DNA from: Plebeiibacterium marinum
Lineage (GTDB): Bacteria > Bacteroidota > Bacteroidia > Bacteroidales > Marinilabiliaceae
DNA: 64,000 nucleotides
Assembly: GCF_026013615.1 (NCBI RefSeq)
Contig: NZ_JAPDPI010000021.1
Coordinates: 1-64,000 of the forward strand
Direction of reading: 5' to 3'
Shown: piece by piece, positions 33,720 to 51,542 of the stretch
Numbering within the stretch: position 1 is the first letter of the stretch
How the letters are laid out: each line of letters starts with the position of its first letter
Made by a program: the position numbers and the translations under genes
The notes under the pieces: generated by a model
Databases searched by the model: none
Told to the model about the DNA's origin: nothing
Seen by the model: the letters and a program-made list of their open reading frames with translations, nothing else

Positions 33720-34412
33720 TTACTTAATAAACTTCTCCCTTTTTTGAAGGTTTATCAATCCCCACAAAACAGCTACAACAGATACAGATAAAAGAATCAA
33801 CCTGTTTTGAAAGATAATCATTTGATACAGGCTGGCACTAACATTTCTTGGAATTCCAAAAGGATTTAGAAACGCATTCCATTTGGATTCGCCTAAGAAA
33901 CCATGCAGAAACCATAATGCCAAACCCACAACCACCATAAACACGGCCGACCCATTACCATTTTTTACCATGGTACTGAACAAAAAGCCTAAGGATCCAA
34001 ATAGGATTAAAACAACCACCAGGTGCCGGCTCATTTTAAACACAGGTAATTCAACCAGCAAAAAATTGTTTAAAAAAGCAAAGAACACTATCATAACGTA
34101 CACCATAATAAATATGATGGCCAAACGCACAAGCCAAACCTTGTACCTGTAATTAGGTATACCAAACAAAATCTCCAAAATACGGGCATCCTCATCATTT
34201 TGTATTCCAAAGGTTGTAGGAAAAAACACAAGTAAAATCCCCGGAAAAATCAATTGGTAATAAGCATCTTCAAGTGCTACATCATCACCCGAAAACAATG
34301 CTATACCAGTAATTATTAAGTAAAATATTAATGAGGCTCCTAAAAAATACACAAACCTATTTCCGAAAATGATTTTCAGGTTGTATTTGATTATCTTAAC
34401 TATGTCGGACAT
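33720..34412 (-). CDS. ABC-2 type transport permease subunit
   Basis: A 230-aa inner-membrane protein with six hydrophobic segments (about 20-40, 54-70, 92-115, 128-150, 153-172, 200-220). It has no ATPase domain. The layout (NLKIIFGNRFVYFLGASLIFYLI; NDEDARILEILFGIPNYRYKVWLVRL, a coupling-helix-like stretch) fits a CcmB/ABC-2 permease. It is the last gene of the seven-gene export cluster, 104 bp after the RND-ABC fusion. The fused ATPase domain is the obvious energy partner; the free ATPase 14 kb upstream is the alternative. Confidence 0.8.
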   Translation of the reverse strand: MSDIVKIIKYNLKIIFGNRFVYFLGASLIFYLIITGIALFSGDDVALEDAYYQLIFPGILLVFFPTTFGIQNDEDARILEILFGIPNYRYKVWLVRLAIIFIMVYVMIVFFAFLNNFLLVELPVFKMSRHLVVVLILFGSLGFLFSTMVKNGNGSAVFMVVVGLALWFLHGFLGESKWNAFLNPFGIPRNVSASLYQMIIFQNRLILLSVSVVAVLWGLINLQKREKFIK

Positions 34413-34516: not shown

Positions 34517-37500
34517 CTAATTATTTCTCAACAACCACAAATACGAATCTTCCAGACTTGACGAAACCAGTTCTGCTCCTTCAACGGGTTGTTGTGCTGA
34601 TAAAACACGTACTTTAATATTGGCGCCCATTCCAATATGGTGCACTACCTGAAATTCCTTGTTTATCCGTTCAAACTCATTTACAGGAACATCAAAGGTC
34701 CATACTTTGCCCTGAGTTATTTGCGAAAGTTCTTTGGGCTCTCCCCAATACTTTAGTTCCCCTTTTCGCATAACTGCCACCATGTTACATGAGCTGGAAA
34801 TATCTTCAATAATATGCGTTGAGAAGATAACCACCCTATCACGGCTCAGCTCAACCAAAAGGTTTCTGAAACGGATACGTTCTCTGGGATCCAACCCGGC
34901 AGTAGGTTCATCAACTACCAATATGCGGGGTAAGTGAAGCATAATTTGAGCAATACCAATGCGTTGTTTCATACCTCCTGAAAAAGAACCGATAGCATTA
35001 TCTTTCTTTTCCCACATATGAACAGCCTTTAAAACATACTCGATTCTGTTATGCCGCTCCTCTTTATTATTGAGTCCTTTAAGCAAGGCCATATAATCCA
35101 GAAACTCATACGAAGTCATGTTTTCATATGACCCAAATTCCTGAGGCAAATACCCTATTAAGCCCTGCAACTCTTCGCGGTACTTTGTCGTATCCAGTCC
35201 GTTAATAAATATCTTGCCATAACTTTGATCAAGTATCCCACAAATAATACGCATAATAGTTGTTTTACCAGCACCATTGGGGCCAAGCAAGCCTATCATA
35301 CCGCTTTCCATGGTTAAAGAAACCCCCTGAAGTGCTTTAAAGGGCTGTTTCTCTTTACCTATAACCGGTATGGAACGAACCATGATATACCAGCTTCTTC
35401 TGATACCGGCAAAACGCCCCTTAAGCCGTTCTACATTAATATTTTCCTGAAGCAACTTCTGACCTGTTTTATAAATAAATATACCCAAATACCATAATCC
35501 TCCAAGAATTATGGCTGTGGCCATACTATCATGCTTCAGTACAAAAAAGGTTAGAGTAACAGCAGGATACCCCCACATTTTTATCTTAAAAATCCGTGAC
35601 TTTGGAGAAAACAACGTTGACATACGACCTTTTTTGTCGGGCCACAGACTTAAATAATTTAAAAATGACAACAATATAAAATATCCTACAAACAGATATG
35701 TAAAGCACCAAAAACCAGATTCCAGATAAAACCAATTCATCCACACAAAAAAACCAAACAAAGGAATTTGCCATATCAGACTTTCAACGTAATGCTGTCT
35801 GCCCTTTTGCAACTGTTCTCTCTTTCCGTATAAACCTGCAGTTTTCCATTCTCGAACAAAACGGTTATCCCTATCGTATATCTTAACCACATTTTGCAGG
35901 GTAATGGTAATACTTTCATGGGGTTTTATCAGTGTTGTTTGCGCTTGTTTGAGGCTAGTTAAAATAAAATATAAAACTGCAGGTACTCCAACAACAAAAC
36001 AAAAATACTCTACCAATTTCCACACAAAAGTATGGTTAAAAACAAAATGGATTAGTACAACTCCCGTAATCCAGCCAGCAAAAATAATGAGTTTAAAAAC
36101 TAATTTCTGTTCACGAATCCAGGCCAATGCCGTTTCCAAACCAAAACTAAATGTTGGAATAAAAACCAGGGTCAGCAATGTACTCAACAACAACCCTCCA
36201 ACTACTGTAATTGCAAATGGGGCACCTAAACTCCCTACATATTCAGATTTACCCAAAGCCAATGGCAACATAGCAATTATGGTTGTGGATGCAGTAATTA
36301 AAATAGGGCGAACCCTTGAAATACCAGCCTGCAACAATGCCCTGGAATGCCTCATCCCCTGTTTTCGTAAGATATTTGAATAATCGATAAGAATAATTCC
36401 ATTGTTTACTACAATTCCCAGCAGTATTAAAAATCCAATTAAAGTATTAAGGCTTAATAAGGAGTTTCCTGTTGTAATTAAGCCAATCAATGAACCTATG
36501 GCTGCCAATGGAATGGAAAACAGCATTACAAAAGGACTTACAAAAGATTCAAAAACAGAAGCCAGGATCATTAATATCAGAATAAACGCTGTTCCTATCA
36601 AAAAGTAAAACTCTTCAAACTGATCTTCTTCATGAATAACCTCAACTGCTGTGCCCGATGGAAGATTGACTTCAGCAATTAAATCATCCACATCCATACG
36701 AGCCTGTTCCAATAAATCTTTTGAATCGTTTATTTCATCATTAAAACGATAATTAATAGTAATCTCCTTTTGCTGGTTTACACGCAATATTTCTTTTCTT
36801 CCACTTGCATAAACAATGTCTGAAAAATCATTTAATGACACCAAAGCACCACTGGTTGATTCAACATTCAGGCTTTTAAGATCATCATAAGTTTTAGCCG
36901 TTTCCTCTTCCTGAGAATACGTTTTATCACTTTTCATGATGATATCATATTCTTCATTTTCAACCTTTAGTTTCCCCCCTGAGGAAATTTCAGGACGAAA
37001 ATTGGTCAGTTCGGCCAATACATTTTGAGGGGTAACACCATACAGACTCATTAAACCGGGATCAAATTCCAGATGCACTTCAGGCCTCGCTGAGCTGGCA
37101 CTTACACGCACTGAACGAAGGTCTTCTAAGTTATCCTCCAAAATATATTTAATATCCTGTGCCAGCAGTAGCATCTTATCAAAATCCTCTCCCTTAATCA
37201 CTACTTTTTCTGTTTGTGCTCCAATGCCAAACATCCCCATTAGGTTCATACCAGGATTTTGGCCAAATCCTCCTCCCATTCCTCCTGACGAAACAGAACC
37301 TTGCTCCATTGATATTTCTGAGCCTTCATACCCATACAAACGTCCCTGGATATCAGCTTTAATCTCCCCCAAAGAGCGGTCGGACTCCTTTTTATATCCT
37401 TCCTTCAGGGTAACACGGATACTGGCTTCCTCTTCATATACCTGACTGATGATCTTATCGTATTCAGGAACCTTTTCCAATCTTTTTTCAAGCTCCCGCA

Positions 37501-39232
37501 CCATTTCATCGGTATTTTCAAGTGTAGAACCGGAGGGGCGCTCAATATCAATACTAAATTCAGGGGTCTCGACCTCTTTGTTAACATTGAAACTCACCAA
37601 TAAGGCAATCAACACAGTAGCAAAAAAAGCAGCCACTGCTGAATTAATGGTGCGTGCCGGCAAACGCATGGCATTTTTCAATAACACAAGATAGGACTGT
37701 ACCAACCTGTTATGCAATGGCAAGCGCCTTAGCCTTTTGTGTACATTGCCTTTTCCATACCACAATACTGCATGGGTCATCATAGGAACCAACAGCAAAG
37801 CCACAACCAATGAAATAATCAGCGTTCCTACAATACTCACGCTGATATTTTTAGCAACCAGCTTAAACATCACATTTGACGAAAATACAAAAGGGAGAAA
37901 TACAGTAATGGTAGTTAAAGTTGCTGCAAATATAGCCCGCCATACCTCCCTGGTACCGGTTATAACAGCTTTGTCCCTGTCTTTTTCGGTAGAAGCTACA
38001 CGATAAATATTTTCCATTACTACAATACTATTGTCGATGAGCATACCCACCGCCAACGCTATCCCAATCAGGGTAAGTGTATTTAGTGATATATCAAATG
38101 CATAAAAAATATTAAATGCCGAGAAAACCGATATTGGGATAGATAACATCACAAGCGAAACCAACGGAACATTTTTTAAGAATATCCACAGGATAAACAC
38201 TGCCAGCAGACTACCTATCAATGCCAGGTTGATTATTTGATCAATGTTTTCTTCAATAGTATCTGCTGAATTTGATGTAATTACAATTTCGGCACCATCG
38301 CCAGTCAGATCATTGTTTAATTTTTCAATTACACTCTTTATTCTGTGCGACAGATCAATCTGATTTACTGTTGACTCTCGGGTAATACGAATTGTTACCG
38401 ACTCCATGGCGTTTACACGGCTATATGAGTCATTTTCCTTTACTCCGAAAATTATCTGGGCCACATCTTTTAGTAAAACAGGTCCGTTGGGAGAAACCAC
38501 CACATTCTCCAAATCATTAATGGTATTATATTCGGCACCAACGTTTACAAACATATATTGACCTTGACCAACAACCCTGCCGGCAAACGTCTTATCACCT
38601 TCGTTTCCTGTAATCTTTCTCCTGATTGAACTAACTGTAAGGCCCATTGCCTCAAGTTTATCTTCATTAAATACAATTTCAACTGTTTTTTGCTGCCCTC
38701 CAAAAACCTCTGCCCCGGCTACACCATCTATATTTTCCAGCTTATCCACAATCTTTTGGTCGGTTAGAGCCCTTACCCTATCAACACCCCCTGTACCCAA
38801 TACCTGAAGCTGCATAAATTGGTTCATCATCTGGCTTAGATCCATCTTTACAACAACAGCCCTGAATCCGTCAGCCATCACACCTTGAGATGCTTCCACC
38901 TTTTCAGCCAATTTTAAATAGGCATATTTAAAATCAACGTCTTTTGATAGATAAACTGTAATATTAGCCCTTCCGGGATTAACCCGGGTTTCCATTTTCT
39001 CAATGCCCTCCAGGGTACCAACCACTCCTTCCATTGGGATGGCGGCTTCCTGCTCTACATATTTCGGATCCGATTCTGTACCATCCGTGTTTTGTATCTG
39101 CACAAAAAGCATTGGAAGCTCCGTATCTGGATAAAGTTCAACAGACAGGTTAGTATAGGACACGATTCCAAGCATGGATAGTGCCACAAACAACATGCTG
39201 ATGAGTACTTTTCTGTGTATTATAAAATTCAT
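34517..39232 (-). CDS. RND efflux permease fused to an ABC transporter ATPase domain (1571 aa)
   Basis: Residues 1-1040 are a full RND permease (AcrB/HAE type): TM1 at the N-terminus, periplasmic porter loops, GMLIDNSIVVMENIYR in TM4 (AcrB has Asp-Asp where this has Asp-Asn), and GIVVNNGIILIDY in the second half. Two more TM segments follow (about 1045-1090). Residues 1108-1119 (ITITLQNVVKIY) look like strand 1 of an ABC ATPase. About 175 residues with four hydrophobic helices come next, then the rest of the ATPase: KALQGVSL (1299-1306), Walker A GPNGAGKTT (Lys1323), signature SGGMKQR (1418-1424), Walker B ending Asp1441-Glu1442, switch His in STH, and a C-terminal domain. All catalytic motifs are intact. 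The even number of added helices keeps the ATPase in the cytoplasm. Its closest visible relative is the ATPase at 48376-49269. It is probably a pump that joins proton-driven and ATP-driven steps. Confidence 0.9.
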   Translation of the reverse strand: MNFIIHRKVLISMLFVALSMLGIVSYTNLSVELYPDTELPMLFVQIQNTDGTESDPKYVEQEAAIPMEGVVGTLEGIEKMETRVNPGRANITVYLSKDVDFKYAYLKLAEKVEASQGVMADGFRAVVVKMDLSQMMNQFMQLQVLGTGGVDRVRALTDQKIVDKLENIDGVAGAEVFGGQQKTVEIVFNEDKLEAMGLTVSSIRRKITGNEGDKTFAGRVVGQGQYMFVNVGAEYNTINDLENVVVSPNGPVLLKDVAQIIFGVKENDSYSRVNAMESVTIRITRESTVNQIDLSHRIKSVIEKLNNDLTGDGAEIVITSNSADTIEENIDQIINLALIGSLLAVFILWIFLKNVPLVSLVMLSIPISVFSAFNIFYAFDISLNTLTLIGIALAVGMLIDNSIVVMENIYRVASTEKDRDKAVITGTREVWRAIFAATLTTITVFLPFVFSSNVMFKLVAKNISVSIVGTLIISLVVALLLVPMMTHAVLWYGKGNVHKRLRRLPLHNRLVQSYLVLLKNAMRLPARTINSAVAAFFATVLIALLVSFNVNKEVETPEFSIDIERPSGSTLENTDEMVRELEKRLEKVPEYDKIISQVYEEEASIRVTLKEGYKKESDRSLGEIKADIQGRLYGYEGSEISMEQGSVSSGGMGGGFGQNPGMNLMGMFGIGAQTEKVVIKGEDFDKMLLLAQDIKYILEDNLEDLRSVRVSASSARPEVHLEFDPGLMSLYGVTPQNVLAELTNFRPEISSGGKLKVENEEYDIIMKSDKTYSQEEETAKTYDDLKSLNVESTSGALVSLNDFSDIVYASGRKEILRVNQQKEITINYRFNDEINDSKDLLEQARMDVDDLIAEVNLPSGTAVEVIHEEDQFEEFYFLIGTAFILILMILASVFESFVSPFVMLFSIPLAAIGSLIGLITTGNSLLSLNTLIGFLILLGIVVNNGIILIDYSNILRKQGMRHSRALLQAGISRVRPILITASTTIIAMLPLALGKSEYVGSLGAPFAITVVGGLLLSTLLTLVFIPTFSFGLETALAWIREQKLVFKLIIFAGWITGVVLIHFVFNHTFVWKLVEYFCFVVGVPAVLYFILTSLKQAQTTLIKPHESITITLQNVVKIYDRDNRFVREWKTAGLYGKREQLQKGRQHYVESLIWQIPLFGFFVWMNWFYLESGFWCFTYLFVGYFILLSFLNYLSLWPDKKGRMSTLFSPKSRIFKIKMWGYPAVTLTFFVLKHDSMATAIILGGLWYLGIFIYKTGQKLLQENINVERLKGRFAGIRRSWYIMVRSIPVIGKEKQPFKALQGVSLTMESGMIGLLGPNGAGKTTIMRIICGILDQSYGKIFINGLDTTKYREELQGLIGYLPQEFGSYENMTSYEFLDYMALLKGLNNKEERHNRIEYVLKAVHMWEKKDNAIGSFSGGMKQRIGIAQIMLHLPRILVVDEPTAGLDPRERIRFRNLLVELSRDRVVIFSTHIIEDISSSCNMVAVMRKGELKYWGEPKELSQITQGKVWTFDVPVNEFERINKEFQVVHHIGMGANIKVRVLSAQQPVEGAELVSSSLEDSYLWLLRNN

Positions 39233-39316: not shown

Positions 39317-42300
39317 CTATCTAATCGTCTTTTTTTTAAAATCAAAAACATAATAAACACAAGGGATAACAACAAGAGTAAGCAAAGTGGATGTTATTAA
39401 ACCTCCTATTACTGCGATAGCCATTGACGAGCGGATAGCGGCACTTTCGCCAAACCCGAATGTTAATGGAAGCAATCCAAGGATCGTGGTCAGACTCGTC
39501 ATAAATATGGGACGTAACCTGCTGTTTGCCGCAGCAATAATAGCATCTTTCAAACTCATACCGTCTTGTTTGTTTTGGTTGATTGCATCTACAAGGATAA
39601 TTGAATCATTTACTGCAATACCGGCCAACATTACTAAACCTATATATGCCATAATATTTAAAGATTTCCCTAAAATTAAAAAGGCAGCAATGGCTCCAAC
39701 TCCGGCCAAAGGAATGGTAAGCAGTATGGTAAATGGATGTATAAGTGACTCAAACTGCGATGCCATAACCATATATACCAATACTATAGATAGAATCAAG
39801 GCAAAGGACAAACTGGCAAAAGATTCTTTTCGCATAAACTCATCCCCCTTTATCTCATATCGATATCCGGCTGGGAAATCTATTTCGGACAAACTGGCAT
39901 TAATTTGCTGAGCTAATTTATCAACAGGTATATTCCCTTTGTTATGAGCAGTGATCCTTCCGATACGGTTTTGATTGTTACGGATAACCTCTTTAGGTGA
40001 ATTTCCTATTGAAATACTGGCTAACTCACTCAGACGATATTCACTGGTTCCATTTTCAATCTTAAAATTTTCCAGTTCTTTTAATGGATAGTCAGGCATT
40101 TTTAGGGTAATATCCGTTAGTTCACCATCACTTTCAATACTTCCGGCATCCTTTCCCATTAAAAACTCCTGTAACTGACTGATAATAGATGAAGCATCAA
40201 TATTAAAAATACCGGCCCTGTACCTGTCAATCATTATATTTACCTCTGGTACGCCATCTTCAAAAGAACTTTTCACATTATATAATTCCTCATCGGCCAT
40301 TAGCCTGGCATATACCTGATCGGATAACTTATCCAATTCCTCCAGGTCATCACCAATAATTTCAACCATAATTGGAGCCGCATCACTACCCAAAATTTCC
40401 TGCAATGCTGTTTCATCTTGTAAAAACTCAAGCTCCATATCATCAATACCTGAAAACAATTCGCTCAATACCGGAATAAAATCACTGGTTGAATATAGAG
40501 TAGAATCATTTAAAGTAACCTTGATAAAACCGGTATTTTCACCTTCAAAAACGCTCTGATCAGAACCCTGCGTATTGGTTTGAGGTCCGGCATGGGTATA
40601 GATATGGGCAAGATGGCCTTTTAATGTTTCAGAAATCATCTCCTCCATCATTTCCATTGTAGAGGCCGTACGCTCAATGCCAACTCCCGAAGGCAAAGTA
40701 ACTTCAATAGAAAACTCTTTGGTTTCAGCAGAAGGCATAAACTCGCTACCAACAAATGGCAAAGAAAAATAGCTTGCTGCCACCAACAGTATGGCTATAA
40801 ATATTACCAGATACCTTTTATTCAACACCTCATCTAAAAACCTTGAATATTTTGGGTATGCATATCCCTGAACCTTTACCACTTCTGATTTTGAAACTTT
40901 TTGTGTTTTGAGGAATATGGTACTCAAAATAGGAATGATCAAAAGTGCCACAAAAAGTGAAGACAACAATGAGAATGCAACTGTCCAGGCCTGGTCTTTA
41001 AACAACTCTCCAGATGCCCCATGCAGGTACACAATAGGCAAAAACACTACTATGGTAGTTAATGTTGAAGCTACCAAAGCACCACTTACCTTGGCAGTTC
41101 CTTCTACAGCAGCTTCTTTCAGGCTCTTTCCCCTTTCGAGCAGACTAAATATATTCTCAACTACAATAATGGCGTTATCCACAAGCATACCAGCTCCGAG
41201 TGCCAAACCTCCCAGAGTCATTATATTTAAAGTGAGCCCATTAAAATACATCAGGTTAAATGTGGCCACAATTGAAATTGGAATGGCCGCACTCACAACC
41301 AAGGTGGTTCCCAACCTTCGTAAAAACAAAAACAGTACAACAACGGCAAAAAAGATCCCTATCAATGCACTATCTTCTACTTCTGAAATAGCATCTTCAA
41401 TAAACTTACCCTGGTTTTTAATTACAGTAATATTATACCCCGGCAAACCCTTTCTCACTTTGTCAAAACCTTCATTCAGGGCCTCAATGGCTGATACCGT
41501 ATTAAACTTTGTTTCTTTATAAATAGATAAACCAATACAGCGTTTTCCGTTTAATCGAACAATATTATCCGGCTCCTGGTTTTTATAACTTACTTTGGCA
41601 ACATCTTTTAAAAGCAATGGAACCTCAAATTCATGTCCTTCTTCATCTCTTTGCAGGGTTGTACCAACTACCAGCTTACCAAGGTCTTCAGGCGATTTAT
41701 AAATACTTACACCTTTAATAATATACTTTTGACCTAGCTCTTCAATAGAACCTCCCGAAACATTTCGGTTGTAATTCTGAATCTTACTTACAATACTTGA
41801 AGAGGTGATACTATGCGATTCAAGCATATAAGGATCTGTTTCAATGGTAATTTCCTTTGTTTCATCCCCACTCAAACGAACATCAGCAATACCATCGATA
41901 CGAATTAAGGCATTACGAATATAATTTTGGGCTACTTTACGTAGCTCATCCATATCTGAAATATTTGGGTTTGAAACAGCTGCCAACATTATTGGCGAAG
42001 CATTGGGATCGTTCCTGTATATTGTCAGGTCTTCAATATCCTCATTCTGGCTATATTGCGTAAGCGCCTTTTGGAGGTCGAGGAAGGCTTCGTCCATATC
42101 CTGATCCCAAGCATATTCCACATTTATTTGAGCCGTTCCCACTTTACTCGTAGAACTTACATTCAACACACCACTCTGTCGGATTACGGTACCTTCAATA
42201 TTCTCAACAAATTGTTTTTCCATCTCCTCAGGAGGCCTTTCTCCCGATTCAATTTCAACTACAATGCGCGGATTGTTCAAATCAGGAAACAAATCGGTTC

Positions 42301-42400
42301 CCAGGCGGGAAAAAGAAATAAATCCCAAGAGAACTATTCCAAGTATAATCATGGCCACCGTTACCCGATAGCTCACTGAAAACTGTGCAAGTTTTTTCAT
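39317..42400 (-). CDS. RND efflux permease (HAE/AcrB family)
   Basis: A 1027-aa proton-driven inner-membrane pump of normal length. N-terminus FSVSYRVTVAMIILGIVLLGFISFSRLGTDLFPD, TM4 motif GAGMLVDNAIIVVENIFSL (with the proton-relay Asp), and the matching second-half GIAVNDSIILVDAINQ. Two large periplasmic porter loops lie between TM1/2 and TM7/8. It works with the membrane-fusion lipoprotein (4 bp upstream) and the TolC-like protein. It is 84 bp upstream of the second, fused RND gene; two different RND permeases sharing one adaptor suggests a mixed trimer as in MdtBC. Substrate unknown. Confidence 0.93.
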   Translation of the reverse strand: MKKLAQFSVSYRVTVAMIILGIVLLGFISFSRLGTDLFPDLNNPRIVVEIESGERPPEEMEKQFVENIEGTVIRQSGVLNVSSTSKVGTAQINVEYAWDQDMDEAFLDLQKALTQYSQNEDIEDLTIYRNDPNASPIMLAAVSNPNISDMDELRKVAQNYIRNALIRIDGIADVRLSGDETKEITIETDPYMLESHSITSSSIVSKIQNYNRNVSGGSIEELGQKYIIKGVSIYKSPEDLGKLVVGTTLQRDEEGHEFEVPLLLKDVAKVSYKNQEPDNIVRLNGKRCIGLSIYKETKFNTVSAIEALNEGFDKVRKGLPGYNITVIKNQGKFIEDAISEVEDSALIGIFFAVVVLFLFLRRLGTTLVVSAAIPISIVATFNLMYFNGLTLNIMTLGGLALGAGMLVDNAIIVVENIFSLLERGKSLKEAAVEGTAKVSGALVASTLTTIVVFLPIVYLHGASGELFKDQAWTVAFSLLSSLFVALLIIPILSTIFLKTQKVSKSEVVKVQGYAYPKYSRFLDEVLNKRYLVIFIAILLVAASYFSLPFVGSEFMPSAETKEFSIEVTLPSGVGIERTASTMEMMEEMISETLKGHLAHIYTHAGPQTNTQGSDQSVFEGENTGFIKVTLNDSTLYSTSDFIPVLSELFSGIDDMELEFLQDETALQEILGSDAAPIMVEIIGDDLEELDKLSDQVYARLMADEELYNVKSSFEDGVPEVNIMIDRYRAGIFNIDASSIISQLQEFLMGKDAGSIESDGELTDITLKMPDYPLKELENFKIENGTSEYRLSELASISIGNSPKEVIRNNQNRIGRITAHNKGNIPVDKLAQQINASLSEIDFPAGYRYEIKGDEFMRKESFASLSFALILSIVLVYMVMASQFESLIHPFTILLTIPLAGVGAIAAFLILGKSLNIMAYIGLVMLAGIAVNDSIILVDAINQNKQDGMSLKDAIIAAANSRLRPIFMTSLTTILGLLPLTFGFGESAAIRSSMAIAVIGGLITSTLLTLVVIPCVYYVFDFKKKTIR

Positions 42401-42404
42401 TTGG

Positions 42405-43460
42405 TTATTTATTAAGGACTTTTATTTTTGAGCGATTTTTAAGAGTCTCAAAACCCTTAATTATCAAACGTTCTTCCACTCTGAGGCCGTCTACAACTTC
42501 TATCCGGTCCTCATGCTCCATTCCGGTAGTTATTCTTCTTTCACGAGCTTCATCTCCTCTTGCTACAAAAACCACTTTACCATAATCGCGCACAAGGATA
42601 GCATCCTTTGAAATTACGATAACACTGTCCTTTTTATCAATAACAATATCCGCTTTTACAAACATACCGGGACGCAGTTTTACCTCAGGATTATTGATAT
42701 ACACCCTGCCTTTAAAAGTTCTGGAGTCGATATCAATGGCTGGGGATATCTCTTTTAATAAACCCGTGAGAGTATCCTCCGGTAAGGCATAATTTGTAAT
42801 TTGAGTTTCCTGATTTAACGATACCTTAGCAATTTGACTTTCCGGCAACATCAAATCCATTATCATTTTTCGATAACTCATTATTTGCAATACTTCCTGA
42901 CTTTGCGCAATTTTTACCCCTTGAGAAAAATAGGGCAAATCAGTAATTAATCCGTCAAAAGGAGCTGTAACCTCTATTTTTTCCAATTGAATCAATGCAT
43001 TTTCATAAGTTTTGCGTGCGGTAATCAACTGCTTTTCGCCTTCAACTTTTTCGCGCAAAGTAACCCCACCTTTTTCATACAACGCCACTTGTTTTTGGTA
43101 TTCCATTTCAGAAATATCCAAATCAAGTTTTGCACCTTCAATATTTATATTGTTTTCATTCTCTTTATCAACAATCTTAATAATCACCTCTCCCTTTTTC
43201 ACAACATCGCCCATTTTATATTTTTTCCCTGTACGGGGGTTTATTTGCAGATAATAATCTCCTGCAGCATTATTGGTAAGCAATGTTTCATATTCCGACA
43301 TTATTGTCCCGGTAGCTGTAAAAACGTCCTGGATACTACCCGTTGTTAACTCTTCAACAGTTACAGGGATGGCTATATCTGCCTTAAATTTATCTTGCCT
43401 GTTATCACACGAAAACAGGGAAAGGGCAAGTAATACTATTAATAGATTTTTTTGTATCAT
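42405..43460 (-). CDS. RND membrane-fusion (periplasmic adaptor) lipoprotein
   Basis: A 351-aa adaptor joining the RND pump to the outer-membrane channel. Lipoprotein signal with Cys18 (LSLFSC). Barrel-sandwich/lipoyl halves (about 40-110 and 165-190, APFDGLITDLPYFSQGVKI) flank a short helical hairpin (LDISEMEYQKQVALYEKGG...ALIQLEKIEV), followed by a beta-barrel (PGMFVKADIVI) and a membrane-proximal domain. The hairpin is short, as in many Bacteroidota adaptors. 5 bp after the tolC-like gene and 4 bp before the RND gene, so translation is tightly linked. Confidence 0.92.
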   Translation of the reverse strand: MIQKNLLIVLLALSLFSCDNRQDKFKADIAIPVTVEELTTGSIQDVFTATGTIMSEYETLLTNNAAGDYYLQINPRTGKKYKMGDVVKKGEVIIKIVDKENENNINIEGAKLDLDISEMEYQKQVALYEKGGVTLREKVEGEKQLITARKTYENALIQLEKIEVTAPFDGLITDLPYFSQGVKIAQSQEVLQIMSYRKMIMDLMLPESQIAKVSLNQETQITNYALPEDTLTGLLKEISPAIDIDSRTFKGRVYINNPEVKLRPGMFVKADIVIDKKDSVIVISKDAILVRDYGKVVFVARGDEARERRITTGMEHEDRIEVVDGLRVEERLIIKGFETLKNRSKIKVLNK

Positions 43461-43465
43461 GATGG

Positions 43466-44953
43466 TTATTTTTTGTTTTTTGGAGAGAAATTAGGAGCTA
43501 CTTCTTTATTGTTTTCAAAATCGTACATCGATTGAATCTTCATATTTAGTAGCTCAAGTTTGTAATTGATAATGGCATTTGTTAACGCATTTTTGTTTTG
43601 AGTTAACTGATTTTGAACCAAGTTTAAATCCATACTGGTTAAATCACCATTTTTATATTTTTCAAGGTTGATTTCATAAGTCAATTGGGCATTCTCTACA
43701 TTTTTCCTCGAAATCTCAATCTGAATCAATAAGTTTTGAAGACTTCGGTATACCTGACGGATATTTAGCTTTATATCAATTTCTTCATCGCGCAAGTCGT
43801 TTTGGTTCATTTCTAATGCAGCCCTTGATGCCTTCATCCTGGCTTTCTTCTCTCCCCAATCCCATAGCGGAATCGTTAATCCTAAAGAAATATTCTGACT
43901 ATTGGTTTGATCCTGAAAAACATCTGATAAGGCTTCATCTTGTCCAAACAAACCGAGTTCCAGACTCAAATCGCCTTTAAATTCGTTAGAAGCATTAGTC
44001 CGGATCAAGTCAAATTGTCCCTGCTCAATGGCAATCTCCCTCTGACGAATTTCCATCCGGTTGTCAACACCTGACTTTATGGCCTTACTCACATCAATAT
44101 CTACCGGGAGAACAGAAACGTCCGCCAGCACCATAATTTCCTCTTCAAGAGGAATACCTAACATTTGTTTGAAATTATCTTTATCATTTTCAAAGGTAAC
44201 CTGATCATTTTGCATACTGGATTTACTCGAAAGCAAATCCAGTTCTGACTGATAAAGCTCTTCTTTAGCAACCAAACCACCCTCAACTTTATTTTTAATG
44301 ATTTCGTGACTTTGGTTACGGCTCTGATAATCTTCGGTGGAGACATTCAGTTCCATTTGCGATTGGTACACTTTATAAAAAGCCTGGGTCACCATATTCT
44401 CAACGCTTAATTCTTGCAAAGCGTAATTAAGGCTGGCATTTTCATAGGCCAGCTCCAACTCCTTTAACTGAAGTTTGGTTTGATTATAGGTAAAAAGAGG
44501 CTGATCCAATCGTAAGCTCAGATTATTGGTAAAACCATCAAAACCAGAGCTACCCATATTACTTGTACTTGTATTTTCACGATAACTGAAGGTATTATTT
44601 AATGATATTACCCCGTCGGTAAACAATATAGGTTGTGTCACTCTGAAGTTCCCTAAACTGGTATAGTCTTCAACAGTATACCATTGCGAAAGCTGACTAT
44701 TAAACTCCCGGTTCTTAGAGTATTCCAGAGGAGTAATATTCAAACTAAAATTAGATTTTAGAGAAGCTCTTTGGGCCTTTAAGTTATGCTCACTCTGAAC
44801 CAATGAAAGCTTAACGTTCTGCATCCTGGGACTAAACTGATATGCTTGTTCCAGAGCCTGCTGCAGTGATAAAATCCTTTGGGCATCAGTACTAATTCCC
44901 ATTACAACAAATGCAATTAAGAATAAGTATTTCGCGTTTTTAAATCGCATCAT
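43466..44953 (-). CDS. TolC-family outer-membrane efflux protein
   Basis: A 495-aa outer-membrane channel. Signal peptide at residues 1-24 (ends STDAQ). Two OEP repeats follow (about 30-260 and 270-480), rich in long helices with Leu/Gln heptads (LSLQQALEQAYQFSPRMQN; LENMVTQAFYKVYQSQMELN; GDLTSMDLNLVQNQLTQNKNALTNAIINYKLELLNM). It forms the exit duct for the RND/adaptor complex encoded directly downstream, with 5-bp spacing. The 84-bp gap to the upstream ABC permease carries a hairpin, so this may be a second start point in the cluster. Confidence 0.92.
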   Translation of the reverse strand: MMRFKNAKYLFLIAFVVMGISTDAQRILSLQQALEQAYQFSPRMQNVKLSLVQSEHNLKAQRASLKSNFSLNITPLEYSKNREFNSQLSQWYTVEDYTSLGNFRVTQPILFTDGVISLNNTFSYRENTSTSNMGSSGFDGFTNNLSLRLDQPLFTYNQTKLQLKELELAYENASLNYALQELSVENMVTQAFYKVYQSQMELNVSTEDYQSRNQSHEIIKNKVEGGLVAKEELYQSELDLLSSKSSMQNDQVTFENDKDNFKQMLGIPLEEEIMVLADVSVLPVDIDVSKAIKSGVDNRMEIRQREIAIEQGQFDLIRTNASNEFKGDLSLELGLFGQDEALSDVFQDQTNSQNISLGLTIPLWDWGEKKARMKASRAALEMNQNDLRDEEIDIKLNIRQVYRSLQNLLIQIEISRKNVENAQLTYEINLEKYKNGDLTSMDLNLVQNQLTQNKNALTNAIINYKLELLNMKIQSMYDFENNKEVAPNFSPKNKK

Positions 44954-45037: not shown

Positions 45038-48000
45038 TTAAAGCTTCTCCCATTTTACAGCATCAGCAACCACAACCCTTCGTGCAGATTTATCCGAAAG
45101 CTCAACAACAGCCTCTCCATCAGAAAAATAGAATTCCCCCAATAATTCCCATGTTGAATTATCTTTTTCTACAGCAACGGATACTATTTCTTCACCATCA
45201 TCATGAAATACCGTATATTCATATGAGCCCTCTTGCCTTTCTCTTCTAAAAGAGCCTGTCCTCTGGGAAGGAACCCGGGCATAAACATTATAACGTCCAC
45301 TTTCTTGCAGATGGGCCTTAAATTGAGCCCTCGCATTCCCGTCTCCTGACTTTTTATAAGTATATGATTTTATATACTTTCCAAACGACTGAGATTCCAG
45401 AACCTTTGTCCACCTGCTTGCCGGATGCCATGGAAACAGCGTTTTATATTCAAATCCCTCTTCGGCTTTTTCTACATCCATTCTGGATAACAAAATCTCT
45501 TTTAAGGTCTTTCGACCTTTGTTATTCACCACTGAAAAACCAGGATCCTCATTATCAACAACAATTTCATTATCCCTGATATACTTTACATCTCCTTTCA
45601 GATCTTTTATACCGGTAAATGTTTTTAATCCTTTTGGAGCTTCCTCAAAATCTGCTAAAAAGAAACGATTATCTGAAGGAACATTCTCCGATAAGTAGGT
45701 ATGCACAGACATCATCCTTGGGGCTTGGCTAAGAATAATACCTATTTGAGCATGTTGTCCTTTTTTAACCAGGTAAATATCTTCGTATGAAGCATTCATT
45801 CCTCCTCCTCCCGGAGGTCCCCCACCTGGACGTGGAGGACCAGAACGACGTCCCCCGCCAAACAAAGATGCCTTGATCATTCCATCAACTTCACCCACAT
45901 TAGCAACTTCCAGACTAATAAAATAACTCTCCTTTTTGTTATCTTTAAACTTATATATTTTGCTTTCCCCAAAAATAAAAGCTGGTAATTTTATCACTGA
46001 ACTTTTATTTAATTCATTCTCACCTGAGTCATCACCAATATAGTCAGTCAACTCGGAAGCGTTTATTGCCTCCCCTTTAAATTTGCCCAACAAACTATCT
46101 ACAAAGTTTTCAAAATTTTCTATCCCAACTTTTTGTTGTGCTGAAGCAAATTTTCCATTACCAACAGTAAGGATAATATCTGCTATACTTATCTTCAAGT
46201 CCTCTTCATCAACCAGGTGAGCCAAACTTTCCGTATTGCTTTTTAAGAAAAGAATAGATTTATCATTCCCCGACAAACTCCCAAAACGGTTAAATGAAGA
46301 ATGAATACGGGATTGCATATATGATTCCATACACATATTTATAAACGGCAACTCCTTTTCTTTTATGGAATATGAATAGTTATAAAATAACGGAAATATA
46401 GAATAAGCACTCCAATTACTTACAGATCGCCCTGCATCTGCTTCATTTCGGAAGAAAAACCGTCGCTCCTTTGGAATAGCAAATGTATTCCCTATTAAAT
46501 TCATAAACAGATTGGCTTCCATTTCCTTAGGTAGCATCTCTGTTCCTTCCCTTTTATTATCTCTTTCTTGCCGATTTTTTGAATGAGCCAGATTAAACTC
46601 ATTTATACCCAAGCCCTTTTCCGGTATCAGTACCATTTCCGGACTGGTGTTTTCATTTATCAGAGCCCAGCTTCTATAATAGGAATAAAAATGAAGGGGA
46701 ACCTCCACAAAAGTGAGCCTTTTATACGGATACGGCACTCCTAACTTCCTTTCAAAATCACCTTTTATTTCTGAAATAAGATTAGGTAGTGTGTCACCCA
46801 GGTTTTCAAAATACTTAGTAAAAAAGTCATTATCCTGCTTAACCAGATATGAATATTTAACAGAATCCACTTCTATAGATTTACCTGTAAACTCAGAACC
46901 AATTAAAGACAACTTTGAATATTTGGCATCTCCTTTAAAAACTGTCCAATCACCATCATATGATTCTTCTCCCTGAGAAAGATACTTTATACCCGTAATC
47001 CCCTTAATCTTTATATCAGATGTAAAAAAACGGGTAATCCTATGTGCATTTCGATCTGCAACTACCGGATACCAAAAATTTTCACTTGTTAGCAAAAGAT
47101 ATTGGTTGCTGACAAACAGCGAACTTTTACCAGCCAACAATGGATCATAACGGTGTAATCCCTCCCTCTTTTCTTTATCAAGATCAAAATATGCAAGGTC
47201 GTCATTGGGCTTACCAGTATACTCAATATTTAGTTTAAGCGTATCCTTATTGTTATAATTATAAAATACAGTAAGAAAATTCAAGTTTTGATTATATTCA
47301 AGACTCTCGCCATTTGTTTTTACAGAGCTAACAATTAGTCCGTTATTAAAATAAAACTTCAGTTCCTTAATACTTTCTAAACTCTCATCTTTTACAACAC
47401 AAATCTCGGTGGCTCCGGCAATTGTCTTTTGCCTGTGTTGTAATTCAATATTATAATGAACTATTTTATAACCTGCATCAATAGGTAATTGCTTCTCAAG
47501 CTGAGCAAAACTCTCAATCTGTTTTTCCAACCTAAATTGATGCTGCAGGTAATTTCCTATTAAACTCAAGCCCAAAAACAGAAATAAGAACGAAGGTATC
47601 AGCGCTACGCTTTTCCCTCTTTTTGTTTGAGAAAGCCTTGACAATTTAAATACAGTAAAAAACATCAGGGAAATACCTAATATAAAATATCCTATACGCA
47701 CAGATGCTATTTGGAATAAATTTCCCAAACCTACATAATCAGAATATGCCATAGGACTAAAAAAACCTATAAAATCCCACGACCCATAATGATTACCTTT
47801 AAGATAGAACAAGTTAGTTGCTATATATCCAAGAACAAGGATAAAAGTAATGGCTTGATTCTTTACCAACTGCATTACAAAAAATGACAATCCAAGCACA
47901 AACATCAATGTTGGTAAGGATACTATTAATGGGTATATCAGATAAGTTATAGCACTGAATCCTGCATCCGTACTTATAATATTAATAATGAAAGTAAAAA

Positions 48001-48379
48001 GCAGTACCAATAAATTCAATCCCCCAAAAACATAAAATATACCCAGAGTTTTGCCAAATACATATTCAAAATTCGACATACTACGAACATATATTACTTC
48101 TGTAGTATCCAGTTTCTTGTCTCTACTCAGAAAATCGGATGATAAGAATACTGCTATTATGGATTGCACAATATTTAATATCCATAAATTCATGTATACC
48201 AATCCCCCGGGCATCATCCTGTCAGCAAAATTGAACCTGCCTATTTCTGTTGAAGCAACTATATTGAAAAAAAGAAGAAAGGCTATAACGATTGCTGAAA
48301 ATATTCTAAAAAACCAGCTGCGCAATAAGGTCTTTACCTCAAATTTTGCAACTATAAAAATGGGTTTATTACTACTCAT
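45038..48379 (-). CDS. ABC-2 permease with M1-peptidase-like ectodomain and golvesin-like C-terminal domain
   Basis: A 1113-aa protein. Residues 1-290 hold six or seven hydrophobic helices of an ABC-2 permease. Residues 300-760 resemble the M1 aminopeptidase fold seen in Bacteroidota 'ABC permease/M1 peptidase' proteins, but the zinc motif is lost: the place of HExxHxWWGN reads ANLFMNLIGN (622-631). A Gly/Pro/Arg-rich linker (GGGRRSGPPRPGGGPPGGGG, near 850) and beta-rich region follow. The last ~130 residues (RWTKVLESQSFGKYIKSYTY ... VVVADAVKW) match the golvesin/xanthan-lyase C-terminal domain, a probable carbohydrate-binding fold. It overlaps the ATPase gene by 4 bp (ATGA), so it is its transport partner. 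Energy-driven movement of a dead peptidase ectodomain suggests handling of a peptide or glycan at the envelope. Function is not known. Confidence 0.85.
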   Translation of the reverse strand: MSSNKPIFIVAKFEVKTLLRSWFFRIFSAIVIAFLLFFNIVASTEIGRFNFADRMMPGGLVYMNLWILNIVQSIIAVFLSSDFLSRDKKLDTTEVIYVRSMSNFEYVFGKTLGIFYVFGGLNLLVLLFTFIINIISTDAGFSAITYLIYPLIVSLPTLMFVLGLSFFVMQLVKNQAITFILVLGYIATNLFYLKGNHYGSWDFIGFFSPMAYSDYVGLGNLFQIASVRIGYFILGISLMFFTVFKLSRLSQTKRGKSVALIPSFLFLFLGLSLIGNYLQHQFRLEKQIESFAQLEKQLPIDAGYKIVHYNIELQHRQKTIAGATEICVVKDESLESIKELKFYFNNGLIVSSVKTNGESLEYNQNLNFLTVFYNYNNKDTLKLNIEYTGKPNDDLAYFDLDKEKREGLHRYDPLLAGKSSLFVSNQYLLLTSENFWYPVVADRNAHRITRFFTSDIKIKGITGIKYLSQGEESYDGDWTVFKGDAKYSKLSLIGSEFTGKSIEVDSVKYSYLVKQDNDFFTKYFENLGDTLPNLISEIKGDFERKLGVPYPYKRLTFVEVPLHFYSYYRSWALINENTSPEMVLIPEKGLGINEFNLAHSKNRQERDNKREGTEMLPKEMEANLFMNLIGNTFAIPKERRFFFRNEADAGRSVSNWSAYSIFPLFYNYSYSIKEKELPFINMCMESYMQSRIHSSFNRFGSLSGNDKSILFLKSNTESLAHLVDEEDLKISIADIILTVGNGKFASAQQKVGIENFENFVDSLLGKFKGEAINASELTDYIGDDSGENELNKSSVIKLPAFIFGESKIYKFKDNKKESYFISLEVANVGEVDGMIKASLFGGGRRSGPPRPGGGPPGGGGMNASYEDIYLVKKGQHAQIGIILSQAPRMMSVHTYLSENVPSDNRFFLADFEEAPKGLKTFTGIKDLKGDVKYIRDNEIVVDNEDPGFSVVNNKGRKTLKEILLSRMDVEKAEEGFEYKTLFPWHPASRWTKVLESQSFGKYIKSYTYKKSGDGNARAQFKAHLQESGRYNVYARVPSQRTGSFRRERQEGSYEYTVFHDDGEEIVSVAVEKDNSTWELLGEFYFSDGEAVVELSDKSARRVVVADAVKWEKL

Positions 48380-49269
48380 GGCCGGTTAAATTTATTTGAT
48401 TCGTACTCCATAAAATATACATAAGCATGTTCCAGATTTGGCATAATATTTTCCCCTTGAAAACCATTTGCACTAGGAGAAATCAATTCCACCTCATAAC
48501 CATTAGCCCCCGGTATGGTAGTAATTACCGGATACTTCTGCTTAATGTCTTCCATATCATCAAAAGCCACCTGTGTTTTCCATACTTTACCTTCTGAAAG
48601 CCTGATAAACTCATCCGGACTTCCAGTAAACTGAATTTGCCCTTCGTTTAATAAGGCCATTTGGTTACAAGTACTGGAAATATCGCCAACAATATGGGTT
48701 GAGAGAATAATTATCACATCTTTTTGACTTAAATCAGCCAGAATATTCCTAAAACGTATTCGTTCTTCGGGATCTAATCCTGTTGTTGGCTCATCCACAA
48801 TAACAATTTTTGGGTCACCTACAATTGCCTGTGCAATGCCAAGCCTTCTTTTCATCCCCCCTGACAACTTACCCGCAAAACGGTTTCTCACTTCAAATAG
48901 CCCTACATCTTCAAGTAGCCGCTCCACCTCATCCCTTCTTTCTTTACGACTATTTATACCTGCTAATGAGGCAGCATAATCAAGAAATTCATATGTTTTA
49001 AGCTTTGCAAAAAAACGAAAATCCTGGGGCAAATACCCCATCATGGCCCTTACTTGTTTACGGTTTTTTTCCAGGTCAGCACCATTAACTTTAATAGTTC
49101 CGCTTGAGGGTTCAAGTAAAGTAACCAATATTTTCATTAAGGTAGATTTACCTGCACCATTAGGGCCAAGCAAACCAAACATCCCTGAATTTATATCCAA
49201 TGATACATTTTTAAGCGCCTGATGTTTGTTTTTATAAATCTTATTAAGATTTTGAATAGATATATCCAA
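48376..49269 (-). CDS. ABC transporter ATP-binding protein (ABC-2 exporter type)
   Basis: A 297-aa ATPase. Strand 1 is ISIQNLNKIY (3-12), Walker A GPNGAGKST (Lys41), Q-loop LPQDF, signature LSGGMKRRLGIAQ, Walker B IVIVDEPTTGLD, switch His in STH, and a C-terminal domain (GKVWKTQVAF; NLEHAYVYFM). It energises the ABC-2 permease that overlaps it by 4 bp. It is clearly paralogous to the ATPase part of the RND fusion: ERIRFRN, GDISSTCN versus EDISSSCN, and GKVW are shared. The only start that keeps strand 1 is TTG at 49269, which may limit translation. It is the head of the export cluster. Confidence 0.93.
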   Translation of the reverse strand: MDISIQNLNKIYKNKHQALKNVSLDINSGMFGLLGPNGAGKSTLMKILVTLLEPSSGTIKVNGADLEKNRKQVRAMMGYLPQDFRFFAKLKTYEFLDYAASLAGINSRKERRDEVERLLEDVGLFEVRNRFAGKLSGGMKRRLGIAQAIVGDPKIVIVDEPTTGLDPEERIRFRNILADLSQKDVIIILSTHIVGDISSTCNQMALLNEGQIQFTGSPDEFIRLSEGKVWKTQVAFDDMEDIKQKYPVITTIPGANGYEVELISPSANGFQGENIMPNLEHAYVYFMEYESNKFNRP

Positions 49270-49465: not shown

Positions 49466-50023
49466 CTATCCAAATATTTCCGTTTTTTCTTTTAAGGGGC
49501 ATTCCTTTTTATTATACTGATCAGGAGCACTTTTCACTACCGTGCGTTTACCTTTGTGCATCCGGTGCTTCATCATTTGCCCATCTCCTCGTTTTGCTTT
49601 GTTTCCAAACATTTTACCTGCATGGGCATCAAACAACACCTTTTGCTCATCAGTTAAAATGCCTCGTAGTTTTTGCTTGTGAGCAAATTTCTTTTTAGCC
49701 ATTTTTGTTTTTAAACTACCAATCTCATCCAATAAACTATTCACCTTTTTTGTATCAACATTATCCCCGGTTGATATCATATTTAGTTCTGCCGTCTTTA
49801 CCTTTATTTCGTTTTTAATTGGAGTCATTTCCTTCATTAATTCAAGTCTGAAGGTTTTTATCTGCTCTTGTTGCTCATCTGACAGGTTTAATCCCCCCCT
49901 GTGCAAACCTCTATCATCTTGAAATCTTTCATGTCCCGTACATTGGCCAATTGCTGTACTTCCTATAATTACAAACAGCAGCGTAATTACCACATAACTT
50001 TTCAAAAATTCTAATGTTCTCAT
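49466..50023 (-). CDS. Spy/CpxP-like periplasmic protein
   Basis: A 185-aa exported protein: signal peptide at about 1-26 (ends STAIGQ), then a helical Spy/CpxP-type region with LSDEQQEQIKTFRLEL and ILTDEQKVLFDAH (LTxxQ repeats), and a basic His/Met-rich stretch (GQMMKHRMHKGKR) with a Cys near the C-terminus (KECPL). Relatives are periplasmic chaperones or metal-binding sensors. Last gene of a sigma/anti-sigma/Spy/Spy unit (25 bp after the previous gene), closed by a terminator. Likely an envelope-stress effector of the sigma factor. Confidence 0.8.
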   Translation of the reverse strand: MRTLEFLKSYVVITLLFVIIGSTAIGQCTGHERFQDDRGLHRGGLNLSDEQQEQIKTFRLELMKEMTPIKNEIKVKTAELNMISTGDNVDTKKVNSLLDEIGSLKTKMAKKKFAHKQKLRGILTDEQKVLFDAHAGKMFGNKAKRGDGQMMKHRMHKGKRTVVKSAPDQYNKKECPLKEKTEIFG

Positions 50024-50048: not shown

Positions 50049-50540
50049 TTACTTAACTCCCCGTTTATCCCCCCTTCTTTTATCCCAACGGTGGAAACGT
50101 TTTACCATCATTGAAGTTATTGAATCAAAACCTTCCTTTTGATCGTCGTTGCATACCTCACGTAAAGATTTAAAATGATTAAATGTTGCTTTTTCTATTA
50201 ACATTTTATTTCTTCCCAACACTTCAAAAAGTGAATCTCCGGCAGAACCATTATTCTCATAGCTTTCTATCAACAAACGTCTGCTATTTTCAATTTCAGC
50301 ATTTAATTCCCCTATCTCCTTAAAATAGCTCTTCCTTTGTTTTTCAAATTCAGCCTGCTGATCTGGTGTCAATTGAAGTTCTTCAAAAAAAGCATTTTTA
50401 CCTTCATGCCTGTTGTCTTTTCTATGCTTTATCTGTTCAATTACCGATGGCACCTTTGGCTTTTCCCACCAAAAACGCCACGAAAAAACATTTAAAACAA
50501 TCAACAACCCAATAATTATATGATAATATCTATTTTTCAT
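50049..50540 (-). CDS. Membrane-anchored Spy/heavy-metal-sensor-like protein
   Basis: A 163-aa protein with an N-terminal anchor (YYHIIIGLLIVLNVFSWRFWW) and a periplasmic helical domain of the Metal_resist/Spy type: LTPDQQAEFEKQRKSYFKEI, long Lys/Glu helices, and a basic tail (KRFHRWDKRRGDKRG). This family often sits next to ECF sigma/anti-sigma pairs and may relay stress to the anti-sigma factor. 6 bp after the putative anti-sigma gene, 25 bp before the second Spy-like gene. Metal binding is not shown by any clear Cys/His cluster. Confidence 0.78.
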   Translation of the reverse strand: MKNRYYHIIIGLLIVLNVFSWRFWWEKPKVPSVIEQIKHRKDNRHEGKNAFFEELQLTPDQQAEFEKQRKSYFKEIGELNAEIENSRRLLIESYENNGSAGDSLFEVLGRNKMLIEKATFNHFKSLREVCNDDQKEGFDSITSMMVKRFHRWDKRRGDKRGVK

Positions 50541-50546
50541 TTACCG

Positions 50547-50891
50547 CTATTTAACTTCATAATTACCTGTCAACAAATCCTCGGAATACATAAAATCATT
50601 CGAAGCATATATATACTCCGAACCAGCATCTTCAATACTTTCATCCAACGACATATCTGAATCTGAATTATTAAAGAAGTAAAAATTTGCAACATTTATT
50701 AAAATAAACAGTGCAAATGCTGGTCTGATTATATATGACAAAATGGAAATGCCAGCCCGAACATCATCCAACTGCTCCACTTTACCCATAACCCTGGTTG
50801 TAAAAAACGGAGAAGCCTTAATCTCCCCATGTTTTTTATTACCTACCTTAAATACCTGATCTAATTCCCGATCCAATCTTTCATTTTTCAT
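50547..50891 (-). CDS. Putative anti-sigma factor (single-span membrane protein)
   Basis: A 114-aa protein. Cytoplasmic N-terminal ~55 residues (MKNERLDRELDQVFKVGNKKHGEIKASPFFTTRVMGKVE), one membrane helix (about 61-83), and a short acidic periplasmic tail (SDSDMSLDESIEDAGSEYIYASND). The position directly after the ECF sigma gene and the layout suggest an anti-sigma factor, although no zinc-type HxxxCxxC motif is present. Assignment rests on context. The spacer before it holds GACGATAACGTC, similar to a site before the sigma gene. Confidence 0.65.
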   Translation of the reverse strand: MKNERLDRELDQVFKVGNKKHGEIKASPFFTTRVMGKVEQLDDVRAGISILSYIIRPAFALFILINVANFYFFNNSDSDMSLDESIEDAGSEYIYASNDFMYSEDLLTGNYEVK

Positions 50892-50960: not shown

Positions 50961-51542
50961 TTACAAATATTCTTTAATCCTTTTCTCTAAAATCTGTTTC
51001 AGCTTCTTTTTCGACCGTACAACTAGCGACTCAACACTCTTAACTGATGTTTCCATTATCTCTGCCACTGTACTTTGATCAAAGCCTTCAATTTGTGTCA
51101 ATACATAAGCCTCCTTCTGACGCGATGGCAATTTATTCAAAGCGTCATACAACAAACTTTTTCGTTGTTGCTGTATCAATTCATCATCTGCCGATTTATT
51201 ATCTCCCACAATCCAATCATAATACTTCTGATCTTCGAGGTAACCAATCTGTCCACTCCCTCTTTTCTGTCGTTTTTTGCTTCTGATAAAATCAATGGCC
51301 TTATTAGAAGCAATTCTGTATATCCAGGTAGATAAGGTTGATTGATTTTTAAACTTATGCAAAGATCTATAGAGCTCAACAAAAACTTCCTGAGCAACAT
51401 CTTCTGCATCATGGTAATTATTTGTATATGAATAACAAATATTCACTACCCTATCCTTGAATAAATTGACCACAATCTCAAAGGATTTATAATCACCTTG
51501 CAGAAAACTTTCTATATCTATCTTTTCAACCGTTTGAATCAC
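50961..51542 (-). CDS. ECF-type RNA polymerase sigma factor
   Basis: A 193-aa sigma-70-family extracytoplasmic-function factor. Region 2 (VNLFKDRVVNICYSYTNNYHDAEDVAQEVFVELYRSL; STWIYRIASNKAIDFIR) and region 4 (LPSRQKEAYVLTQIEGFDQSTVAEIMETSVKSVESLVVRSKKKL) are complete. The start is GTG at 51542; no upstream ATG fits better. First gene of the unit sigma / putative anti-sigma / two Spy-like proteins, a typical envelope- or metal-stress response arrangement. The export cluster just downstream is a plausible target, but a terminator intervenes. Confidence 0.92.
   Translation of the reverse strand: MIQTVEKIDIESFLQGDYKSFEIVVNLFKDRVVNICYSYTNNYHDAEDVAQEVFVELYRSLHKFKNQSTLSTWIYRIASNKAIDFIRSKKRQKRGSGQIGYLEDQKYYDWIVGDNKSADDELIQQQRKSLLYDALNKLPSRQKEAYVLTQIEGFDQSTVAEIMETSVKSVESLVVRSKKKLKQILEKRIKEYL

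Follow-up and report, generated by a model that had tools for sequence, protein, structure and literature searches.

An RND permease fused to a membrane-split ABC ATPase in Plebeiibacterium marinum, part of a putative composite trans-envelope exporter

Introduction

Can an RND permease and an ABC ATPase work as parts of a single polypeptide, and if so, what does the ATPase drive? Primary exporters, which run on ATP, and secondary exporters, which run on protons, are regarded as distinct classes, with cooperation in the cell as the most that links them. Within a 64,000-nucleotide stretch of Plebeiibacterium marinum DNA (referred to below as the window), a first-pass annotation had described a protein joining both types, and had offered two readings: either a dual-energy export machine, or an arrangement in which the ATPase is tethered to the RND complex but powers the neighbouring ABC-2 permease. 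A conserved weld of this kind would make the coupling of inner- and outer-membrane efflux testable within one complex.

We found no RND-ABC fusion, and no gene set of this type, among the titles and abstract openings listed in searches of the open-licence literature. The available excerpts of PMC5595328, PMC10197588, PMC8277102, PMC11078008 and PMC4338810 do not mention such a fusion. The titles and abstract openings listed for inserts in ABC ATPases likewise described no such protein.

Results

The fusion gene of the window begins with ATG and has zero internal stops. ACR_tran scored 524.3 bits on its product (curated cut-off 28) and covered profile positions 3-1016 of 1021, and ABC_tran matched residues 1301-1445 (E 9.3e-28). 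The single frame and the two Pfam domains bear out the description of one 1571-aa polypeptide composed of an RND permease and an ABC ATPase. The best 25 of 197 NCBIfam models all scored below their cut-offs on the fusion; drrA and GldA were the top ATPase models, and RND_permease_2 reached 468.1 bits against a cut-off of 1250. The best solved-structure match by sequence was MdtB. A search of the host genome (5.6 Mb, 187 contigs) with ACR_tran gave 19 stretches, which include the fusion and several pieces of single frames.

Walker A (Lys1323), SGGMKQR (1418-1424) and DEPTAGLD (1441-1448) lie where the first-pass annotation had placed them and were invariant in 15/15 aligned full-length sequences, that of the window included. 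The same 15 sequences all carry K1323, Q1364, S1418, E1442 and H1473. The features of the locus are listed in Table 1.

Table 1. Coordinates of the fusion gene, its parts and the neighbouring genes in the window
Feature	Position	Strand	Details and basis
Small ABC-2 type permease (likely)	33720..34412	-	230 aa; next gene after fusion; weak family Pfam matches
RND-ABC fusion gene	34517..39232	-	1571 aa; single open frame; Pfam ACR_tran and ABC_tran
Rest of ABC ATPase	34520..35341	-	Residues 1298-1571; Walker A, Q-loop, signature, Walker B, H-loop; Pfam ABC_tran
Predicted membrane insert inside ATPase	35342..35866	-	Residues 1123-1297; AlphaFold2 model
Predicted ATPase first strand and presumed A-loop	35867..35911	-	Residues 1108-1122, Y1119; model strand 1110-1119
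Two predicted extra membrane helices after RND part	35939..36103	-	Residues 1044-1063, 1069-1098; AlphaFold2 model and hydropathy
RND permease part	36149..39229	-	Residues 2-1028; Pfam ACR_tran E 7.3e-157
Second RND permease, RND1	39317..42400	-	1027 aa; Pfam ACR_tran E 8.1e-218
Periplasmic adaptor (membrane fusion protein)	42405..43460	-	NCBIfam RND_mfp 157 bits, cut-off 94.9
TolC-type outer membrane factor	43466..44953	-	Pfam OEP E 1.4e-44
Large ABC-2 type permease (likely), with M1-peptidase-like and Golvesin_C parts	45038..48379	-	Family Pfam matches
Second ABC ATPase, NBD1	48376..49269	-	Pfam ABC_tran E 1e-34
LTXXQ / Metal_resist protein	49466..50023	-	Above both Pfam cut-offs
Second LTXXQ-like protein, apparent N-terminal membrane anchor	50049..50540	-	Pfam Metal_resist E 0.0016, below cut-off
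Small ORF, possible anti-sigma factor	50547..50891	-	114 aa; position and stretch shared with ORFs of L154, L156 and L158
ECF sigma factor	50961..51542	-	Pfam Sigma70_r2 and r4_2

Conservation of the fusion was followed with residues 1030-1320 (the linker) as query. Matches were obtained in 17 of 41 genomes, including that of P. marinum itself. The match in G036 was weak; among the other 16, the open frame was 1569-1587 aa long in 15 and 1252 aa, ended by its contig, in the last. One of the eight same-genus genomes gave no linker match. A spread over the phylum, with the best few candidates per genome scored, gave the linker in 6/395 genomes (P. marinum again included), and the distribution is patchy. 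In the genome collection at least 592 stretches matched the search patterns; 46 of the best 80 had the linker and 34 lacked it. Linker carriers among the matches listed belong to Marinilabiliaceae, Prolixibacter, Draconibacterium, Parabacteroides, Bacteroides faecis, Tannerella and Marivirga, and also include metagenome-assembled genomes (MAGs) labelled Zixiibacteriota, Krumholzibacteriia, Calditrichaeota, KSB1 and Latescibacterota (labels and binning as deposited). The linker query had no match in 72,556 plasmid records, and plasmid-borne spread was rejected on that search.

The 62 loci examined were reduced to 58 distinct in their last 300 residues, leaving out three that have no frame with linker and ATPase, namely L036 (weak hit) and L053 and L073 (contig ends), as well as L037 (repeats L027). 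RND part, linker and ATPase stood in one frame at 57 of the 58, mostly from Bacteroidota, several of which lose the RND end to a contig end. Because this frame is shared so widely, the fusion is neither a chance event nor an assembly error, and the relatives rule out a sequencing error that merged two genes at the junction. Nothing in the window itself points to an artefact or a decayed, non-functional gene; a broken RND part was seen in one relative (L077), upstream of the junction. Given the shared frame and the invariant catalytic residues, we regard this explanation as having next to no chance of being right.

A two-gene arrangement in relatives, which would have counted against a true fusion, was found in L079 only. 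In this locus, carried on one contig of a MAG, the first gene stops after the two extra helices and the second (483 aa) opens shortly ahead of the ATPase's first strand, the halves being 215 bases apart. The L079 RND part groups with those of the fused L050 and L066 (support 1.0), and the split is therefore secondary. The gap (L079:5508-5722) contains, by eye, an inverted-repeat-like stretch.

L079 bears on the view that the fusion does no more than set the expression ratio and co-localisation of an ordinary ABC-2 exporter and an ordinary tripartite pump, uncoupled from each other. The natural split falls at the domain border and both halves, together with the small permease, have been retained, as such a passive tether would allow. 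However, a passive link should have been split more often in relatives this divergent, and the one split observed is secondary, comes from a single MAG contig and may represent a damaged copy. We consider the passive tether improbable, and rank it behind the other functional readings discussed below.

The first-pass annotation had described the ATPase as complete, overlooking an insert that splits it. An AlphaFold2 model of residues 1030-1571 based on 63 rows (mean pLDDT 85.8, pTM 0.70) replaced an earlier model on 15 sequences (mean pLDDT 72.4). The rows leave out the repeats L037, L117 and L122 and the cut-short L053 and L073, and take L079 as its second gene and L077 as its second piece. 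The order in the model is two long helices, strand 1110-1119, four long helices (1145-1169, 1173-1195, 1213-1234 and 1237-1263), a second strand and the remaining ATPase. As read from the strand assignment, the first strand appears to pair with the second strand of the ATPase. The Foldseek matches of the model were ordinary ABC ATPases such as 1vpl, with an rmsd of 1.6 over 210 columns.

I1110, K1117 and Y1119, the last at the site that we take to be the A-loop, were invariant in 63/63 rows; the insert that follows had a mean column identity of 0.44. The first strands of ABC ATPases run contiguously up to Walker A, but in the fusion Y1119 precedes Walker A by 198 residues in the window protein and by 131-230 over the 63 rows. 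Among ordinary ATPase loci of the genome (20 readable of 29 others), an aromatic residue lies 23-28 positions ahead of Walker A in 17 and is missing there in three. The split poses a folding problem, in that the first strand can join its domain only once further helices have been inserted into the membrane.

The insert gave no Pfam match up to E 1 and was not recognised as a known fold by Foldseek, whose matches shown were all ATPases or ATPase-containing proteins. A crude count of hydrophobic peaks gave between 2 and 6 per row, with 4 or 5 in most rows, so that the number of four insert helices is the reading of the model. On this prediction the fusion would gain six membrane helices, two before the first strand of the ATPase and four inside it; because both numbers are even, the ATPase would stay on the cytoplasmic side. 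In the fusion L080:7388-11986 the insert is shorter, apparently with two helices instead of four (by eye). A defence system was considered and rejected: PADLOC matches fell on the ATPase, plus one weak match on the RND part.

Members of the RND permease family are expected to have 12 membrane helices. The TM4 aspartate D400, presumably equivalent to AcrB D407, and N943, N944, R973 and R975 were invariant in 15/15 aligned sequences. D400 and N943-N944 were retained in 57/57 distinct RND parts of fusion loci, including the first gene of L079 and leaving out the partial duplicates L010 and L012, in which D400 is not covered; R973 and R975 were present in 59/59 rows, two of them partial duplicates. 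The position after D400 is N, S or T in the fusion RND parts, and N (36), D (7) or S (5) in the 48 other RND permeases of the set. N943, found in all 57 RND parts, stands at the site that we take to correspond to the TM10 lysine of AcrB, which the fusion lacks. Since NN also occupies positions 943-944 in 40/48 of the other RND permeases, N943 is a subfamily trait. A degenerate RND half was rejected, the TM4 and TM10 residues being those common among unfused relatives. Because its transmembrane residues are kept as in those relatives, the RND half is probably still proton driven.

The fusion is one of seven genes that form a conserved unit: ABC ATPase, large ABC-2 permease, TolC factor, adaptor, RND permease, fusion and small ABC-2 permease. 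The TolC factor, adaptor and second RND permease that the first-pass annotation had placed beside the fusion were all matched (Table 1); it had overlooked the related second ATPase that heads the operon. Neighbours were counted at loci whose contig leaves room. RND1 lay at most 700 bases upstream of the fusion in 46/49 loci, the exceptions being L025 (928-base gap), L077 (broken gene) and L079 (split gene). Adaptor and TolC factor were found upstream in 43/44 loci, L077 failing by the distance limit, and the large ABC-2 permease in 44/44. In a midpoint-rooted tree of the RND columns, computed without L010 and L012, the fusion RND parts (57) and RND1 (53) formed separate clades, each with support 1.0; no unfused ancestor emerged from the midpoint-rooted trees. 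The operon thus contains two different RND permeases, an MdtBC-like trait.

NBD1 was present in all 15 upstream stretches fetched. When 30 ATPase loci were compared, with 22 lower-scoring stretches left out, the fused ATPase and NBD1 were reciprocal best matches at 249 bits; the runners-up reached 150 and 160. Their relatedness and synteny suggest that the two pair with each other.

The two ABC-2 permeases of the first-pass annotation are likely, with weaker evidence than the other components: family members match Pfam ABC-2 models, but neither protein of the window does. The large permease ends in a Golvesin_C domain; among eight members of its family, Golvesin_C was found in 8/8, ABC2_membrane_2 in 3/8 (best E 1.7e-6) and Peptidase_M1 in 1/8; HExxH was found in none of the eight. 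Among 25 members of the small permease family, ABC2_membrane_3 matched four, ABC2_membrane_4 two and ABC2_membrane_2 one (best E 0.00026), and the family profile retrieved no ABC-2 structure from the solved structures.

The small permease closely tracks the fusion. Of the 54 loci with room for it, 52 have it downstream at a distance of at most 900 bases. A 214-aa ORF separates it from the fusion in L025, and in L030 it lies one ORF further off; L081, a KSB1 MAG, had no recognised small ABC-2 permease in the 9.2 kb available downstream. In 435 distinct genomes, strong linker matches occurred in 21, and 20 of these had a strong small-permease match; the exception was G002, whose contig ends 144 bases past the fusion. 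Among the 414 genomes without a strong linker, none had the small permease except for one weak match (G103, E 6.5e-4). Weak linker matches outside the 21 were found in G036 and in G026 (with stops), and G004 had an additional partial small-permease match. Absence of the small permease is less certain in the phylum sample, because at most 6 or 7 best candidates per genome were scored there. After the small permease of the window lies a gene for a pentapeptide-repeat protein (33025-33579, minus strand), with relatives only in the same-genus L026 and L027 among 16 loci compared.

This co-occurrence favours the reading in which the ATPase drives the adjacent ABC-2 permease; of the dual-energy alternative, we saw no sign of direct ATP use by the RND part. 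According to that alternative, ATP hydrolysis by the fused domain would drive or gate the RND trimer, and the ABC-2 permeases would act separately. It gains from the retention of the covalent fusion across deep divergence, from the membrane insert in 63/63 rows (shortened in L080) and from L081 with its fusion and no small permease nearby. On the other hand, the RND intramembrane residues resemble those of unfused relatives with no visible loss of proton drive, the small permease follows the fusion closely, and in L079 RND part and ATPase are on separate chains, if that copy is functional. We consider the dual-energy pump unlikely.

Upstream of the operon, within the genus, are an ECF sigma factor and metal-resistance-like proteins that had also escaped the first-pass annotation. 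Relatives of the ECF sigma factor were present in 8 of the 15 upstream stretches, as were those of the second LTXXQ-like protein (50049..50540); relatives of the first (49466..50023) were present in seven, all from the same genus. An ECF sigma factor together with an LTXXQ-like protein preceded the operon in 8/15, namely all seven fusion-bearing same-genus genomes and G023. The small ORF may encode an anti-sigma factor.

Discussion

The architecture of the fusion, its conservation, its co-occurrence with the small permease and its intact motifs are observed directly; from these we infer the pairing of subunits, the stoichiometry, the direction of transport and the hand-over between exporters. 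With a probability of roughly 60%, the fused ATPase energises an ABC-2 exporter to which a heteromeric RND tripartite pump is firmly joined, and a single polypeptide thereby couples an ATP-driven inner step to a proton-driven outer step.

The 1571-aa protein would then belong, as one of the subunits, to a composite exporter that spans the envelope. Its RND half and RND1 would form an MdtBC-like heterotrimer which, with the adaptor and the TolC factor, would use the proton gradient to expel periplasmic substrate from the cell. The six extra membrane helices would hold the ABC ATPase at the cytoplasmic face of the RND trimer, where it could power an ABC-2 exporter built of the small permease. 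ATP would bring substrate, taken from the cytoplasm or the inner leaflet, across to the periplasmic side, and the RND pump would take over there, the ABC-2 exporter feeding its periplasmic intake.

The most economical composition would be one heteromeric unit of the fused ATPase and NBD1 with the small and large ABC-2 permeases. We prefer this heteromer because one set of two ATPases and two ABC-2 permeases would make one ordinary ABC-2 exporter; the two-plus-two count is a reason, not proof, and two homomeric ABC-2 exporters would fit equally well. A bolder scheme would combine a proton-driven RND protomer and an ATP motor, threaded through the membrane, in one polypeptide: ATP hydrolysis, transmitted via the six helices, would pace the RND trimer through its cycle, and the ABC-2 permease would meanwhile load cytoplasmic substrate. 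We hold this scheme to be as doubtful as the dual-energy pump.

Metal efflux systems of the Cnr type have an ECF sigma factor and an LTXXQ-like protein before the RND operon. The fusion system resembles them in this respect; however, its regulators were seen in seven same-genus genomes and one other of 15 stretches. They suggest a substrate class linked to metal or envelope stress.

Like MdtABC and MuxABC, which are HAE1-type RND tripartite pumps, the fusion operon has two RND permeases, one adaptor and a TolC-type channel. Unlike them, its fusion permease adds six predicted membrane helices and an ABC ATPase, and the operon also encodes an ABC-2 permease and a second ATPase/permease pair. MdtBC forms a B2C complex from one operon, and pumps that move drugs across the inner membrane potentiate trans-envelope efflux, according to an excerpt of PMC4338810. 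By analogy, this link between inner-membrane and trans-envelope transport would be hard-wired in the fusion system.

The fold of the fused ATPase is close to those of 4yer, 1vpl, LptB, NosF and ABCA ATPases. In contrast to the ATPases of ABC-2 exporters such as DrrA, GldA, NosF and ABCA, it shares a covalent chain with an RND permease, and predicted membrane helices interrupt it between its first strand and Walker A. MacAB and VarABCDEF (the latter in an excerpt of PMC5595328) share with the fusion system an ABC transporter working with an adaptor and outer channel; however, they have no RND permease, and their permeases are MacB-like, with four helices and a large periplasmic domain, instead of ABC-2.

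Named strains of Bacteroides, Parabacteroides, Draconibacterium and Prolixibacter are among the carriers, which should bring the system within reach of genetics. The B. thetaiotaomicron BT0297-0300 cluster was considered as a fusion operon and was not confirmed as one; BT0297 is annotated as SilC in an excerpt of PMC4380924. At four other loci (L090, L091, L095 and L116), unfused RND permeases occur in tandem pairs behind an adaptor, with no adjacent ABC gene recognised; the tree places the first RND of every such pair as sister to RND1 (support 0.82).
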